Source: a virus. Taken from it: DNA of 37,364 nucleotides. A model generated the notes under the pieces. The model searched no databases. It was not told the DNA's origin and saw only the letters and a program-made list of their open reading frames with translations. The stretch lies in IMG/VR virus record IMGVR_UViG_3300044638_004252, positions 1 to 37,364 of that record. One strand, given 5' to 3'. Position numbers and translations under genes: made by a program. Position 1 is the stretch's first letter. Every line of letters begins with the position of its first letter. This document shows, piece after piece, positions 950-10,009 of the stretch.

Positions 950-1909
950 ATGAAAAATTTATTAGTATCATTTTCTGGTGGCGAAACATCTGCATTTATG
1001 GCTCAATGGTTATTGAATAATTATAAAAATTATGGTTATAAAGATATACTGTTTGTTTTTGCAAACACTGGAATAGAAAATGAAGAAACCTTAGAGTTCG
1101 TTGAAAAATGCGATAATAAATTAGGAATTAAAACACATTGGATTGAAGCATTTGTTAGAGAAGAAAGTGGGAAGGGTACATTTTATTCAATTACAGACTT
1201 CCAAAATGCTACTCGTAAAACACATTGGAAGTATAGAGACAATACGCCATTTGAGCAAGTAGTAAGAAAATATGGAGTTGCTAACATGGCATTTCCACAT
1301 TGCACTAGAGAATTAAAACAAGTTCCTATTAAAAAGTTTGCAAATGAGTATTTTGGAATAAATAATTATGACACTGCTATTGGCATTAGAGCAGACGAAT
1401 ATTCAAGAAGAAGTGATGTTGCTAAACAAAACAGAATTATTTATCCATTACAAGATTTTATAAAAGTAACTAAACCAATGATTAATTTTTTTTGGAAACA
1501 ACAATTATTTAGGTTAGATTTAAAAGGGTATCAGGGTAATTGCGTTTCATGTTGGAAAAAAGGAGATAATAAATTATTCAAATTGTGGCATGAAAATAAT
1601 GAGGTGTTTGATTTTTTTGAATATTTGGAAAATAAGTATGGCAATCCTAACGGAAGAGTTCCAAAACGCTCAATTGAAGTTGTTGAAAATGATTTTGGTG
1701 AACAAGAAATAAAAATAGTAACAGAAAATGTTCCCATAGAAGAATTAAAAATGGTTTTTTTTAGAGATAATAGAAGTGCAAAAGAAATGAGAGATTTAGC
1801 TAAGACATGGAAAGAAAAAGATATAAAAAATGATGCTGACTTTTATAATTTTCAAGTTGATTTGTTTGGTCAAGAAAGTTGTGATATTTTTTCAGATTGT
1901 CATTTATAG
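950..1909 (+). CDS. PAPS reductase / PP-loop family protein
   Basis: The 319-residue protein has a PP-loop motif SGGETS at residues 9-14, a conserved HCTRELK at 117-123 and a later C199-x2-C202 pair. This is the layout of phosphoadenosine phosphosulfate reductase-like (adenine nucleotide alpha-hydrolase) proteins. Family members bind ATP or PAPS; phage versions are common, and their role (sulfur metabolism, DNA or RNA modification) is generally unproven. It is present only in the left version of the duplicated locus. It starts 6 bases after Y1 and ends before the leader element at 1935. No Dnd partners are visible, so DNA phosphorothioation is only a possibility. Confidence 0.8.
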   Translation: MKNLLVSFSGGETSAFMAQWLLNNYKNYGYKDILFVFANTGIENEETLEFVEKCDNKLGIKTHWIEAFVREESGKGTFYSITDFQNATRKTHWKYRDNTPFEQVVRKYGVANMAFPHCTRELKQVPIKKFANEYFGINNYDTAIGIRADEYSRRSDVAKQNRIIYPLQDFIKVTKPMINFFWKQQLFRLDLKGYQGNCVSCWKKGDNKLFKLWHENNEVFDFFEYLENKYGNPNGRVPKRSIEVVENDFGEQEIKIVTENVPIEELKMVFFRDNRSAKEMRDLAKTWKEKDIKNDADFYNFQVDLFGQESCDIFSDCHL

Positions 1910-2066
1910 ATTTTAATTTCCCAAAATAAACCGCTATCTTAGCGTAGAAAATAGCTTTTGCTTAAAGTGCGAGAAATTGAGCAAAGTTTTTATAAACATT
2001 TATAGCCTTATTGATTTTAGACGGTACTCGCACTACCTGAAAAAATTGGTAGGGCTTTTTTAATTT
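1910..2066 (+). promoter_or_regulatory. Promoter plus leader with long-range helix and terminator hairpin
   Basis: A -7-like box TATCTTAG lies at 1935-1942. Downstream, AGTGCGAG (1966-1973) is a perfect complement of CTCGCACT (2027-2034). A second hairpin CTACC (2033-2037)/GGTAG (2048-2052) is followed by six T (2056-2061) and looks like an intrinsic terminator. The 3' arm of the first helix overlaps the 5' arm of the terminator by two bases, so the two folds compete at their border. The element sits directly before the replication module and its layout resembles 6135-6234. The -33 box is weak. A ligand or regulator is not known. Confidence 0.55.
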
Positions 2067-2339
2067 ATGACAATACTTAGAACAGATGGCACCGGCTCAT
2101 TTAAAGATGATAGCCGGTTACAAGAAATGAAAGAGTTGCTACATCATTTTAGCCTTAATAATAAAATAGACCATTTGCACGACCACAAAGGCAATTTAAC
2201 GGTTAATTGGAATGTTACGCCAACGGTAGGTGATTTAATTATTGTCAACCGGACATGGGCCGGATTTGGTGAAACTCAAATAGAACACTTATTTGATAAG
2301 ATGAATATTTTTATAGACACTAAAGAGTTTGACCGATGA
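2067..2339 (+). CDS. Hypothetical protein, first gene of the CCGG-rich replication module
   Basis: A 90-residue soluble protein of unknown family, rich in His and Asp in its middle (HLHDHKG). It overlaps the next gene's ATG by 4 bases, so it is probably cotranscribed with the initiator and primase-helicase. Its base use resembles those genes, with four CCGG words in 270 bases, and differs from the upstream PAPS-reductase-like gene. This marks the left edge of the module. Confidence 0.7.
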   Translation: MTILRTDGTGSFKDDSRLQEMKELLHHFSLNNKIDHLHDHKGNLTVNWNVTPTVGDLIIVNRTWAGFGETQIEHLFDKMNIFIDTKEFDR

Positions 2340-3082
2340 GCAAGAAATCATTTTACCTATTCCATGACAGTTTGGATATACTAAATGACCTTACAGATGA
2401 GCAGGCCGGCAAGTTATTTAAAGCAATTTATAACTTTAACATTGGTATTGATACTGAATTAGACCCGGTATTAAAAATGTGTTTTTTGCCATTTAGAAAT
2501 CAATTTGTAAGGGATTTAGATGCGTATAATAAGAAGTGTGAAAAAAACAAACTCAATGGTATCAATGGTGGCCGGCCATCAAAAACCGAAATAACCGAAC
2601 CGAACCGAAATAACCCAGTGGGTTTTTTAAAACCGAACCGAACCGAAATAACCCAAACGCCCCACGATACAGATACAGATACAGATACAGATACAGATAC
2701 AGATACAGATACGGATACGGAAAAGGATAATGATAAGAAAATAACTTTTGTACGTTTTTGGAATTTGTATGATAAAAAAGTAAGCAGGGATAAATGCGAA
2801 AAGATATGGGCCAAGCTATCAGAAAAAGATATTGAGAAAATATTTGAAACATTACCGGCATTTATTGCAAGCATAAAAGACAAACAGTTTCAGCCACACC
2901 CGGCCACATACTTAAACCAAAAGAGGTGGAATGATGAAATAGCTGGCCCGGCACCGGTAAAAAATGAAATTGATAAAATGCACAACCGGGACTTATACTA
3001 TTCTCATGTTGAATACGTAAACATTTGCCGTGCCAAGAAAGTAGAACCTATAATCACAATAGAGGAGTTTTATGCAAAGTAA
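2336..3082 (+). CDS. Replication initiator-like protein (DUF6291 N-terminus, DnaD/DnaT-like C-terminus)
   Basis: A 248-residue protein. The N-terminal part (about 1-75, with SFYLFHDSLDIL and a LFKAIYNFN segment) resembles DUF6291 proteins of Bacteroidota phages. A linker follows, containing a duplicated Pro-Asn-Arg-rich segment and nine Asp-Thr repeats coded by a hexamer repeat. The C-terminal part (about 135-215, FVRFWNLYDKK ... HPATYLNQKRW) matches the C-terminal segment of phage replisome organiser proteins. It lies directly upstream of the primase-helicase, with 11 bases of overlap, and probably helps load it. A similar protein begins at 37321. Confidence 0.7.
   Translation: MSKKSFYLFHDSLDILNDLTDEQAGKLFKAIYNFNIGIDTELDPVLKMCFLPFRNQFVRDLDAYNKKCEKNKLNGINGGRPSKTEITEPNRNNPVGFLKPNRTEITQTPHDTDTDTDTDTDTDTDTDTEKDNDKKITFVRFWNLYDKKVSRDKCEKIWAKLSEKDIEKIFETLPAFIASIKDKQFQPHPATYLNQKRWNDEIAGPAPVKNEIDKMHNRDLYYSHVEYVNICRAKKVEPIITIEEFYAK
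2596..2652 (+). repeat. Imperfect direct repeat of ACCGAAC-type units in the initiator linker
   Basis: The stretch before the hexamer array repeats AACCGAACCGAAATAACCCA-type sequence twice, separated by a short T/A-rich piece, coding a repeated Pro-Asn-Arg/Thr-Glu-Ile pattern. It lies in the variable linker and probably expands and contracts by slippage. Confidence 0.7.
2666..2719 (+). repeat. Hexanucleotide microsatellite (GATACA)7(GATACG)2
   Basis: Nine consecutive 6-base units code nine Asp-Thr pairs in the linker of the initiator. Unit length is a multiple of three, so copy-number change alters linker length without breaking the frame. Confidence 0.95.
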
Positions 3083-4979
3083 TAAATTAGTTTCAGTCTT
3101 TGGCTCAATGTATGAGAAAACCGGCAAAATCATTCCGGCCGGCAAAGTATTAGAGGCCATTCGAACCGGTGGCACAATAAAAGAATTAATAGCCGATATT
3201 AGGCAATGCCAACAAAAAGAGGCCAAGACTAAACTTAAGCACCGGTTGCCGGCTATACGTTTTAGTGGAACGTTTGAAACAAACACCGATAATTCCTTAA
3301 AAGAACATTCCGGCTTAGCTATATTAGATTTTGACCACGTTGAAGATTTGGCCCAAAAGAAAGCCGAACTAATGGCCCTACCGTTTATTTATTCAATTTT
3401 TATTTCACCAAGCGGAGATGGCATAAAGGCCATTGCAGTAATTAAGGATGGCAAAAAGCATCGGGAGCATTATTCGGCTTTAATGCAAGAAATACCAAAA
3501 CTTGATGAAAAGAATATAAACCCATCCCGGATATGTTTTGCAAGTTATGACCCGGACATTTACATAAACGAAAACGCAACAACCTATAATAAGGTGGCCG
3601 AACCGGTACAAGTTAAAAATGAAATACCGGTAACAGAAAGCACTGAAATATTTATGAAACTTGAAAAGTGGTTAGCCGGCCGGATGGACACGTTTACCTC
3701 TGGGAACCGAAACGCTTATATTTTCAAATTGGCTTCCGGATGCTGCCGGGCCGGAATAGATAAAAACGATGCTTACTATTTGATAAGGGCTCAATACCTA
3801 ACCTCAAATACAGACTTTAAAGTCCGGGAAATGGAACAGGCTATTGACAGCGCATACAAAAGAAGCCAATTTGCATCTGCTGTATTTACTAAAAACGAAT
3901 TTGTAAATAAAACCGGTGGCCCGGTTGAATTACCGGAAAATGTAGAAGATATTGAGGATATAATTATTGGCTATGATGTTATGGCCGGAGCCTTAGACCT
4001 TTATGACGATGGGTTTAAGACAGCAGAAGAAACCGGGATCCAAGAACTAAACGAACATTTTAGACTAAAAAAAGGCGAATTAAACGTTTTGACCGGCATA
4101 GGTAACGATGGAAAAAGTACCTTTTGGAATTACCTAATGATAAACAAAACAGTAAAGGATGGTACTAAGTGGGCCATATTTTCACCTGAAAGCGACCCGG
4201 CCGAAGAGTTTTATTTTGAGTTGGCCGAAATATTATTGGGCCAAGATTGCCTAAAAGAAAACCCGGCCCGGCCAAGTCGAGAAGATTTTATAAAAGCCTA
4301 CAATTTTGTTTGTGAGCATTTCTTTTATGTTTACCCTAAGAATATTTCACCCACACCGGAATACATAAAGGAGTTGTTTTTAAAATTGATTATAACAAAA
4401 AAAGCCGAGGGCGTAGTTATTGACCCATTCAACCAAATGAGTAATGACTATTCGACATCCGGTGGCCGGGATGACCGGTATCTTGAAACATTTTTAGCAG
4501 ACTGTAAAAGGTTTGCTCAACAAAATAGTGTTTACTTTACTATTGTGGCCCACCCTAAAACATTGCGAAAAGATGCTAATGCCGGTTACGCTTGCCCGGA
4601 TGTATTTGATATTGCCGGTGGCGGTATGTGGAATAATAAATGTGATAATGTTTTGGTTTATTACCGGCCCGAAAGACATAAGGATTTATCAAGCCCCGTA
4701 AGCGAATTACATATAAAAAAGATAAAAAAGCAAAAAGCAGTTGGTCGGCCCGGAATGATAACAATGAATTACATACGTAGAAGAAGAGGATATGACTTTA
4801 GTCATCCGGCCATTGAAAATATGAAATTTGACAGCCGGGAGAAAAAATATGTAGATTTTGTAGATAAAATAAAATCAATGCCTGCACCGGCAGCGGTTGA
4901 ATACGTAAACAAAAGAATAGAAAGCAAGGGAAGCGAGAAAGACTTTGAAGATGAAAAAGAGCCATTTGATTATTTTTAG
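3072..4979 (+). CDS. Bifunctional primase-helicase (BT4734-like N-terminus, RecA/DnaB-like C-terminus)
   Basis: A 635-residue protein. Residues about 55-165 have the BT4734/VirE-like primase-associated pattern: LDFDH (85-89), SPSGDGIK (112-119) and SRICFASYDP (152-161). A helical middle follows. Residues about 325-560 form a RecA-like ATPase with Walker A GIGNDGKST (342-350), Walker B VVIDPFNQ (448-455) and a His-Pro-Lys sensor-like motif near 494. It should prime and unwind DNA at the phage fork. It starts inside the end of the initiator gene and is the core of the CCGG-rich module. No phage polymerase is present, so host polymerase is presumably recruited. Confidence 0.85.
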   Translation: MQSNKLVSVFGSMYEKTGKIIPAGKVLEAIRTGGTIKELIADIRQCQQKEAKTKLKHRLPAIRFSGTFETNTDNSLKEHSGLAILDFDHVEDLAQKKAELMALPFIYSIFISPSGDGIKAIAVIKDGKKHREHYSALMQEIPKLDEKNINPSRICFASYDPDIYINENATTYNKVAEPVQVKNEIPVTESTEIFMKLEKWLAGRMDTFTSGNRNAYIFKLASGCCRAGIDKNDAYYLIRAQYLTSNTDFKVREMEQAIDSAYKRSQFASAVFTKNEFVNKTGGPVELPENVEDIEDIIIGYDVMAGALDLYDDGFKTAEETGIQELNEHFRLKKGELNVLTGIGNDGKSTFWNYLMINKTVKDGTKWAIFSPESDPAEEFYFELAEILLGQDCLKENPARPSREDFIKAYNFVCEHFFYVYPKNISPTPEYIKELFLKLIITKKAEGVVIDPFNQMSNDYSTSGGRDDRYLETFLADCKRFAQQNSVYFTIVAHPKTLRKDANAGYACPDVFDIAGGGMWNNKCDNVLVYYRPERHKDLSSPVSELHIKKIKKQKAVGRPGMITMNYIRRRRGYDFSHPAIENMKFDSREKKYVDFVDKIKSMPAPAAVEYVNKRIESKGSEKDFEDEKEPFDYF

Positions 4980-5026
4980 GCAGCGAAAAAGATTTTACAG
5001 ATTTTTAAAACCAAAAACAAATAAAT

Positions 5027-5467
5027 ATGAAAACACTAACACCTAACACAATTTTAAAGCAAGCCGATAAGACATTTACGGCAGTAGAAGTAGATGGCAA
5101 TATTATTTGGATAGACAAAAAAGAATTTGCAGATGAAACAATAGCCCAAACCTCGCCAATACTTAAAGACATACCAGTAATATCATTTGATAGTTATGTT
5201 AAAAGACTATCTTTAAATATTGGAAAGGAAAAATATATTGGAGGAAACTATGATTTTGAAAATGGAGTAAGAGTAGGGTATAAATCCAACCCTGCTAAAT
5301 GGACAGATGAAGATATGGAAAGAGCAATTGAAATGGCAAGAAAATTTCCATACGTTAAAAAAGGCGAAATCACTTACGATTTAACGGCAAAAGAAATAAT
5401 AAACAATCTCTCTGAAATATCAGTAATAGAAGTAGATAATGATTTTAACGTAATTACAATAAAATAA
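5027..5467 (+). CDS. Hypothetical protein
   Basis: A 146-residue protein that I do not recognise. The first 60 residues look like a beta-rich domain (TFTAVEVDGNIIWIDKKEF). The C-terminal half has WTDEDMERAIEMARK, an amphipathic helix. It follows the primase-helicase by 47 bases and precedes the SSB-like gene by 13, so a replication-linked role is likely but unproven. CCGG words are absent, unlike upstream. Confidence 0.6.
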   Translation: MKTLTPNTILKQADKTFTAVEVDGNIIWIDKKEFADETIAQTSPILKDIPVISFDSYVKRLSLNIGKEKYIGGNYDFENGVRVGYKSNPAKWTDEDMERAIEMARKFPYVKKGEITYDLTAKEIINNLSEISVIEVDNDFNVITIK

Positions 5468-8041: not shown

Positions 8042-8705
8042 TATTAATGGAAAGATTTATAATGTACCTACCAACTTCGATGAAGTAAGCTATAAAGACT
8101 ATTGCAGGTTATTGACAACAGAAAACACAGCAGAAAAAATAAACATACTCACTGAAATCCCAATTGAAACCATAAACGAATTATCAATATCAGATATTCA
8201 CTTTATTACTGAATGCCTTATGTTTGCTGATATTCTTTTTGTCGCTCAAAATTATGCCGGCTTAAGTGAACCTTTACACATTGACATAGGGGCTTCAACC
8301 TATGGACAATTAGAAGTAGCAAGACAAAACATAGTATCTAAGGGGTGGCTAAGAGCAGGTAATGAAGTAATGCAAGCCTACAACTTAATCGAAGTTAATG
8401 ATATGATGATACCTTTAGGAATGTCATATCTAAACGACATTTACGGAAAGATAAACACATTCTTAGAAAAGTATAAAAAACTATTTGAGGGCGAACCTGA
8501 TTTAGAAGAGGAGTTAGCAGGTGCGGAAGTGTTCGCCAAGTTTGGAAGTTTCCCGACTGTAGATAAATTAGCAATTGTTTATGGCATAACACACGATGAA
8601 GTGTTAAAGATGCCTGCCGAAATAGTTTATACTAAGTTGTTGTATGAGCATGAGAAAAACGAATTTGAAACCAAGCTACATAAAATAAAGTCAAAAAGTG
8701 TTTAA
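8028..8705 (+). CDS. Hypothetical structural/assembly protein
   Basis: A 225-residue, mostly helical acidic protein starting within the end of terL. The C-terminal part (VYGITHDEVLKMPAEIVYTKLLYE) resembles the pattern of tail assembly chaperones, but no frameshifted partner is visible and the position after terL is unusual for one. The function is uncertain. Confidence 0.5.
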   Translation: MMQLSINGKIYNVPTNFDEVSYKDYCRLLTTENTAEKINILTEIPIETINELSISDIHFITECLMFADILFVAQNYAGLSEPLHIDIGASTYGQLEVARQNIVSKGWLRAGNEVMQAYNLIEVNDMMIPLGMSYLNDIYGKINTFLEKYKKLFEGEPDLEEELAGAEVFAKFGSFPTVDKLAIVYGITHDEVLKMPAEIVYTKLLYEHEKNEFETKLHKIKSKSV

Positions 8706-9249
8706 GCAGCTATTAGATAATATCGGTAATAACTTAGTAACAAGGTTAAAGTTTAACATAACCCAAGTTAACTATAATGGCTTTGCTCCAGCTAACAACA
8801 CAGGCAAATTAGCTAATAGCATCAAGTACAATGCAACTGAATTTAGGTTAACAGTAGTTGGTGAAGATTATATCTATAATGTTTCAGAAGGGCGTAAAGC
8901 AGGTAAATATCCACCTTACAATCCAAACGATACTAGGTATGGTTACAAGGTTAAAGGCGTAAACAAAGGCAAGCCAAGAGGCACGTTCCCCAATATAGCC
9001 GATTGGTTAAGTACAAAGCAATCAGCACGTTCAAGGTTTAACTATGACAGCAAAAGTGATAGCGAAAAAGCAGGTTTAGTATTTATGGTAGCCAAAGGCA
9101 TAGCACAAAAAGGAACGGTAATAGCCCAAAAAGGTGGTAGCGATATGCTGCAAAGTGCATTCACAGAAGCAGAAAAAGAATTAGTAATGGCACAATTAAA
9201 CAATATATTTGTAGCAGAAGTAAAAACAATATTGAATGGCAAGCCTTAA
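8698..9249 (+). CDS. HK97 gp10-like tail completion protein
   Basis: A 183-residue protein starting with GTG inside the stop region of the preceding gene (8-base overlap). The pattern GKLANSI (about 36), a central SEGRKAGKYPP (about 64) and a Trp-containing IADWL segment fits the HK97 gp10 / neck-tail connector family, which caps the tail tube at the head. Overlap with the following ATG (9236) supports an operon. Confidence 0.65.
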   Translation: MFKQLLDNIGNNLVTRLKFNITQVNYNGFAPANNTGKLANSIKYNATEFRLTVVGEDYIYNVSEGRKAGKYPPYNPNDTRYGYKVKGVNKGKPRGTFPNIADWLSTKQSARSRFNYDSKSDSEKAGLVFMVAKGIAQKGTVIAQKGGSDMLQSAFTEAEKELVMAQLNNIFVAEVKTILNGKP

Positions 9250-10009
9250 CACTTATTTAGATAACATACAATATCCTAATGTGTGGAGTGCTGCTCACTA
9301 TCCTATAATATTCACAGCCGAACCACAAACACGAACTAATGTATTGATAGATAATTCAGCAGGTTACGCTAGGCTAACATTTAGTTCAGCGTTTACCCTG
9401 CCTTTAAATGCAGGTGCATTAATTTATATTAGCGATGGAGCGTATAAAGGCTTTCATTTAATTAAAAGCGTAAACACTACCATACAAGTAGTTTTAGAAA
9501 CTTTGTACACCGTAAACGACAACACAGCATATGATGTTAATTATTGCCCTACATTAAACTTTACACTATACAAAGGGTATGAGACAACCGAAGAGTTCCC
9601 CACTGAATTACCTTTAACTGAAGTAGCCAGTTTTAAAGTAGAAATAAACACCAAGACAATTAGTTATCGTTGGGACGTTTCGGGCTATCTTAAATCTATC
9701 TTTACCATTCAGCCACCAACTGAAGGTATTGATTTTAATATGTTTAATAGATGGCGGTTGTACTTCTTAGGTGAGGACATGGGACATTATCAGGTAGCCA
9801 ATGCTTCAATTCCTCAATCCGATTTTAACGAGTTTTACGTAAACACAGGCAAGATACTTAATTCACAAAATGCAATAGTCTTTAGTTGTGGTAAAACCAT
9901 CTACTCTAAGTTACAAAATAACGTAATAGTAAATGAAATAGTTGAAGATGCAGAAAGTGAACCAGAATTTACATTACAGTTTAACAATCAATTTAAAATA
10001 CAGATATGA
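9236..10009 (+). CDS. Putative tail structural protein
   Basis: A 257-residue beta-rich protein with many short strand patterns (TYLDNIQYPNVW, FKVEINTKTISYRWDVSGYL) and no membrane segment. It sits between the gp10-like gene and the distal tail genes, so it is most likely a tail component. No specific family is recognised. Confidence 0.6.
   Translation: MASLNTYLDNIQYPNVWSAAHYPIIFTAEPQTRTNVLIDNSAGYARLTFSSAFTLPLNAGALIYISDGAYKGFHLIKSVNTTIQVVLETLYTVNDNTAYDVNYCPTLNFTLYKGYETTEEFPTELPLTEVASFKVEINTKTISYRWDVSGYLKSIFTIQPPTEGIDFNMFNRWRLYFLGEDMGHYQVANASIPQSDFNEFYVNTGKILNSQNAIVFSCGKTIYSKLQNNVIVNEIVEDAESEPEFTLQFNNQFKIQI

Follow-up and report, generated by a model that had tools for sequence, protein, structure and literature searches.

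Why should one 2.9-kb segment of a phage genome, coding for three replication genes, be packed with the word CCGG when the other 34 kb holds few copies, and did this signal arise in place? The window analysed here, one IMG/VR virus record of 37,364 bases, is a tailed phage of Bacteroidota, as judged by its large terminase subunit and by the relatives of its primase-helicase. An earlier note on this DNA had estimated by eye roughly 50 CCGG in the segment and about 16 elsewhere, an excess of about 35-fold with sharp borders and in all codon phases. It was read there as selection on DNA (a modification or binding site, an origin-linked signal or a Chi-like word) or as import from a genome with that habit, and codon-shuffled controls and a scan of primase-helicase homologues were named as checks.

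Extent of the block and its genes

Exact counts bear the estimate out. There are 50 CCGG at positions 2067-4979 and 16 across the remaining 34 kb, a density ratio of 35.9-fold. Within the segment CCGG occurs first at 2092 and last at 4887; none is found in 1-2066, and the nearest one downstream is at 8257. A second word, GGCC, which is absent from the earlier note, displays a larger contrast still, with 29 copies inside 2067-4979 and one outside. The saturated block, to which no strand is assigned, is at 2092-4890.

Three genes, all on the plus strand, form the segment, here termed the cassette. Gene 1 (2067-2339) encodes a 90-aa protein without a known family and has 4 CCGG at 6 possible sites; its counterpart at this position in L106, a sister phage described below, shares 50% identity with it. 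Gene 2 (2336-3082, 8 CCGG) encodes a replication initiation protein with a DUF6291 N-terminus (Pfam PF19808, E 2.3e-19; PHROG 270, replication initiation protein, E 1.8e-15). Gene 3 (3072-4979, 38 CCGG) encodes a fused primase-helicase with BT4734-like_N (PF08800), PriCT_1 (PF08708) and DnaB_C (PF03796) domains, the last at E 2.2e-4 and below the gathering score; its PHROG match is 18375, DNA primase/helicase (E 5.4e-58). The order small gene, initiator and primase-helicase is also found in Maribacter phage Panino and Tenacibaculum phage JQ.

Within the initiator gene are two perfect 25-bp direct repeats, AACCGAACCGAACCGAAATAACCCA, at 2593-2655 on the plus strand, which are candidate origin iterons, and beside them is a GATACA tandem array (2660-2720). 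Together they form a possible lambda-like origin inside the initiator gene. No CCGG is present in the repeats. A profile search of a subset of the window's open reading frames detected no methyltransferase, and none is tied to the cassette.

Codon-level controls

In the shuffle null, synonymous codons were permuted without change to any protein or to the codon usage of the cassette itself. Shuffled cassettes are expected to have 22.5 ± 3.1 CCGG and 12.6 ± 2.6 GGCC, versus 50 (z 8.9) and 29 (z 6.4) observed, and the excess thus survives this control; the two words are the top two enriched among the 256 tetramers. Neighbours that differ by one base are depleted by the same comparison (CCAG, 1 vs 9.0 expected; ACGG, 4 vs 11.5). 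Recoding the cassette proteins by the codon usage found elsewhere in the phage gives an expectation of 4.9 CCGG and 3.6 GGCC.

Saturation, defined as the share of places where some synonymous choice could create the word and does, is independent of GC content. In the cassette it is 60% for CCGG (50/83) and 52% for GGCC (29/56); in the rest of the phage it is 3% (10/319) and 0.3% (1/393). None of the 31 possible CCGG and 34 possible GGCC sites is realised in the four flanking genes tested. The excess of both words in the cassette is real and strong.

The independence from codon phase that had been noted by eye is borne out, with CCGG realised at 18/24, 18/22 and 14/37 possible sites in the three phases; all three genes and all three phases contribute to the CCGG/GGCC bias. 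The reported choice of CGG for arginine after C is likewise seen in gene 3, at 10 of 11 arginine codons after C and 2 of 17 after another base. Realised sites are distributed like a random draw from the possible sites (runs test, P 0.29 and 0.65). This even spread over genes and phases is the pattern of a genome-wide habit and not of clustered functional sites. A search for a longer motif around CCGG in the cassette found none: the flanks are mixed and the context rCCGGy is dispensable. GGCC in the cassette never has T as the next base.

The rest of the phage has a bias of its own. By codon shuffling, GGCC occurs once against 21.5 expected and GATC once against 39.2, and there are 16 CCGG where a Markov model gives 37. 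Part of the 35-fold contrast is therefore avoidance of CCGG outside the cassette. GATC and CCAG are avoided in the cassette as they are in the rest of the phage, and thus the cassette is not foreign in every respect.

Borders and sister phages

A search with the terminase led to close sister phages (75-84% aa identity). L106 is 88-97% identical to the window on both flanks of the block, and between them the two phages are unrelated at the DNA level. The L106 alignments break off at 2089 and set in again at 4898, and CCGG runs from 2092 to 4887; the sharp borders claimed earlier thus coincide with the limits of homology. The alignment with L107 shows the same gap. The left flank common to the sister phages (1906-2089, no strand) is an intergenic leader with a terminator-like hairpin that continues into the first codons of gene 1 and ends 3 bases ahead of the first CCGG. 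By blastn, L106 matches it at 97% over 1906-1964 and 89% over 2055-2089, and L107 at 80% over 1910-2077. The right flank (4898-5036, no strand) is common to L106 at 88% identity and starts 8 bases past the last CCGG word. A second contig, G001, overlaps the window at 100% identity from base 2284 onward. Two assemblies thus cover the right junction and the greater part of the cassette, and only one covers the left junction.

The replication modules found at this locus differ in kind. By Pfam, the module of L106 contains a Zn-finger/Toprim primase-helicase and that of L107 a DnaB helicase together with a C5-methylase-like gene; a Prim-Pol protein is found in L105, and in the window a BT4734-like primase carries a helicase domain of DnaB_C-like type. 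These are four primase/helicase types in four phages, and as different replication genes lie between common flanks, the locus is a swap site for replication modules. In L105, L106 and L107 the modules have 1-2 CCGG each, at 2-5% of the possible sites, and 0% of the possible GGCC sites. Outside the cassette, and in the sisters, GGCC and GATC are nearly absent and CCGG is scarce.

Directly behind the stop codon of gene 3, and sharing its last base as the first G, is the sequence GGCAGCGAAAAAGATTTTACAGATTTTTAA (4979-5008, plus strand). This stretch matches the 3' end of the DnaB coding sequence in L107, where it reads GSEKDFTDF and a stop; in L106 this DnaB tail is non-coding as well. It is a fossil of a DnaB C-terminus and the scar of a module replacement.

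Two further observations concern these loci. The otherwise unrelated replicative helicases have a common tail, in which KGSEKDF precedes acidic residues and an aromatic end (window 4900-4979; L106 7480-7563; L107 6660-6690). It resembles the SSB C-terminus and may be a docking tag kept through module swaps. Upstream of the module the window has a PAPS-reductase-like gene (950-1909); in L107, at 1365-3690, a longer homologue has a ParB-like gene two genes on, a combination that we take to resemble the IbrA/IbrB pair of other phages.

A second word-marked import in terminase genes

An intein insert in the terminase gene of L107 (9080-11122) carries all 15 GGCC of that 16-kb locus, and its nested HNH gene realises 12 of 19 possible GGCC and 1 of 12 possible CCGG sites. 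The L339 terminase has an insert at about 8740-9840 that is 76% identical in DNA to that of L107 and is likewise GGCC-saturated (GGCC 10/14, CCGG 0/12). Thus foreign pieces with a word habit enter these GGCC-avoiding phages more than once. The nested genes encode NUMOD4/HNH homing endonucleases (192 aa in L107, 188 aa in L339) in a frame different from that of the intein; the intein's own frame stays open through the nested gene, which amounts to dual coding.

Homologues and the search for a donor

Among 66 homologous primase-helicases, the observed/expected ratio of CCGG is 14.3 in the window, 6.8 in L012 and at most 3.2 in the rest. About 65 relatives are thus without the CCGG bias, as are the sister modules, and the bias is a trait of neither the gene family nor the site. 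Related primase-helicases are found on contigs of Bacteroidota genomes. The closest, from genomes G002 and G006, share 48-50% aa identity, and the protein search yielded no donor. These two genomes lean towards the word signature of the cassette, with CCGG at 31-33%, GGCC at 20% and GATC at 2-5% of possible sites. No DNA match to the cassette was found in phage and plasmid collections.

Genomes were also screened by the density of CCGG pairs, using four overlapping sets (30, 395, 398 and 396) that amount to about 1,190 distinct Bacteroidota genomes; 80 stretches were then sampled, of which a few proved masked or too short. As a screen, the pattern GGCCGGCC told little, since it follows GC content. 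No low-GC donor with both words was found among the approximately 1,190 genomes, a statement that combines pair density with GC sampled for the genomes of high pair count only. None of the samples at 38% GC is close to the cassette, and no sampled genome has both words above 50% of possible sites. The donor is for these reasons inferred and not found. For each word the saturation of the cassette is above that of every sampled genome.

The pair screen does show that tetramer habits vary by orders of magnitude among related Bacteroidota genomes. In G045, CCGG is realised at 46% of possible sites and reaches 13-20 per kb in four of five 20-kb samples. This Bacteroidota genome (L289-L292) has 47-51% GC, with CGCG and CTAG near zero. 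In a clade formed by G644, G722, G700 and G712 (L309-L312), GGCC is realised at 35% and CCGG at 7% of possible sites; GGCC is present at 9-13 per kb and CCGG is depleted. By analogy, the GGCC of this clade is possibly a genome-wide word habit like that of the cyanobacterial HIPs, here outside cyanobacteria. HIPs comprise HIP1 (GCGATCGC) and variants such as rCCGGy in Oscillatoria PCC 10802; they are associated with orphan methyltransferases, and one proposal for their build-up is a mismatch-repair ratchet (PMC4390886).

Alternative explanations

A function in the present phage should be considered, with the words selected inside the module as methylation sites, as primase or initiator binding sites or as an extended origin. 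The marked segment coincides exactly with the replication module, the excess is greater than in any genome-wide habit sampled and it spans all codon phases, all of which would suit such a role. However, primase-helicases of other phages do without the bias, as do the sister modules at the very same locus, the realised sites are unclustered, the candidate origin repeats are devoid of CCGG, and two different words are raised together with no longer context in common. A local function is thus very unlikely, and the origin-linked, Chi-like and binding-site readings of the earlier note are not supported. Selection on DNA, as the note had it, is retained in part, in that selection or mutation bias is needed, but in the donor genome and not here.

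An effect from outside the cassette would reverse the argument: host restriction would have purged CCGG and GGCC from the rest of the phage and left the cassette at the unpurged level. The strong avoidance of GGCC and GATC in the rest of the phage and in the sisters is in line with this, but the cassette itself lies far above its own codon shuffles and above mononucleotide expectation (13.6-fold for CCGG, 7.9-fold for GGCC). In other phage loci the realised share reaches at most 37% for CCGG and 30% for GGCC, and mostly lies far lower, versus 50-60% in the cassette; GATC is avoided inside the cassette too. Purging alone is therefore very improbable. Capture from a bacterial chromosome instead of from another phage is given only a very small chance. 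Related primase-helicases do lie on Bacteroidota contigs, and such word habits are seen in host chromosomes; however the cassette consists of three phage-type replication genes in the order of phages Panino and JQ, and gene 1 has its counterpart at the same place in L106. A prophage donor would satisfy both the phage-origin and the chromosome-origin readings.

Origin of the cassette

Most probably the CCGG block came in by horizontal exchange, as a replication module of a Bacteroidota tailed phage taken from a donor genome with a HIP-like CCGG/GGCC habit. Of the readings in the earlier note, import from a habit-bearing genome is the one that stands, on account of borders that are breakpoints and of about 65 homologues without the bias. 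The homology of gene 1 to the L106 gene at the same place points to a donor phage of similar layout and, with the gene order shared with Panino and JQ, makes a phage or prophage the most likely donor.

The exchange probably proceeded as follows. A phage of the lineage of the window, which avoids GGCC, CCGG and GATC, would have recombined at a hot spot common to its sisters, and its own replication module would have been replaced by that of another phage or prophage. The donor would have had a genome-wide HIP-like habit, with CCGG and GGCC at over half of the positions that its proteins permit; we infer that the whole donor genome carried it. The high residual saturation suggests a recent import and a present host that exerts no strong restriction at CCGG and GGCC sites. 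The two words are standard and common targets of m5C methyltransferases. Conceivably the donor habit arose in the manner proposed for cyanobacterial HIPs, via cognate orphan m5C methyltransferases. The depletion of one-off neighbours in the cassette fits a mismatch-repair ratchet and direct selection alike.

There is about an even chance that an unsampled low-GC Bacteroidota lineage, host or phage, has CCGG and GGCC each at more than half of the synonymously possible sites genome-wide. This would be a double HIP-like habit outside cyanobacteria, stronger than in any genome examined and possibly tied to paired m5C methyltransferases. Bacteroidota do include CCGG-rich and GGCC-rich clades. If HIP-like words are common outside cyanobacteria, their drivers, whether methyltransferases with mismatch repair or selection, become testable in many independent lineages. 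In addition, word usage here delimits an imported phage module to within about 10 bases at each end without a reference genome, and such marking would serve as a precise means of finding phage recombination.

Comparison with known systems

Mosaic tailed phages exchange replication modules, the lambdoid O/P and DnaB modules being examples. The locus described here is similar in that non-homologous modules swap at one site, with near-identical flanks and breakpoints at gene ends. It differs from classic module exchange, where sequence and GC differences are the main marks, in that the import is delimited precisely by an extreme signature of two words. Restriction-site avoidance, known in phages, fits the rest of the phage and its sisters, in which GGCC and GATC are nearly absent and CCGG is infrequent; it accounts for this background but not for the excess in the cassette. 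There is also a parallel with HIPs, as in both cases a short palindrome with a methyltransferase-type core is present far above codon-aware expectation and in all codon phases. However HIPs are genome-wide and cyanobacterial, while the cassette is a phage segment of 2.9 kb, presumably from Bacteroidota, in which two words of 4 bases are raised, and unlike the Oscillatoria HIP it does not require the rCCGGy context.
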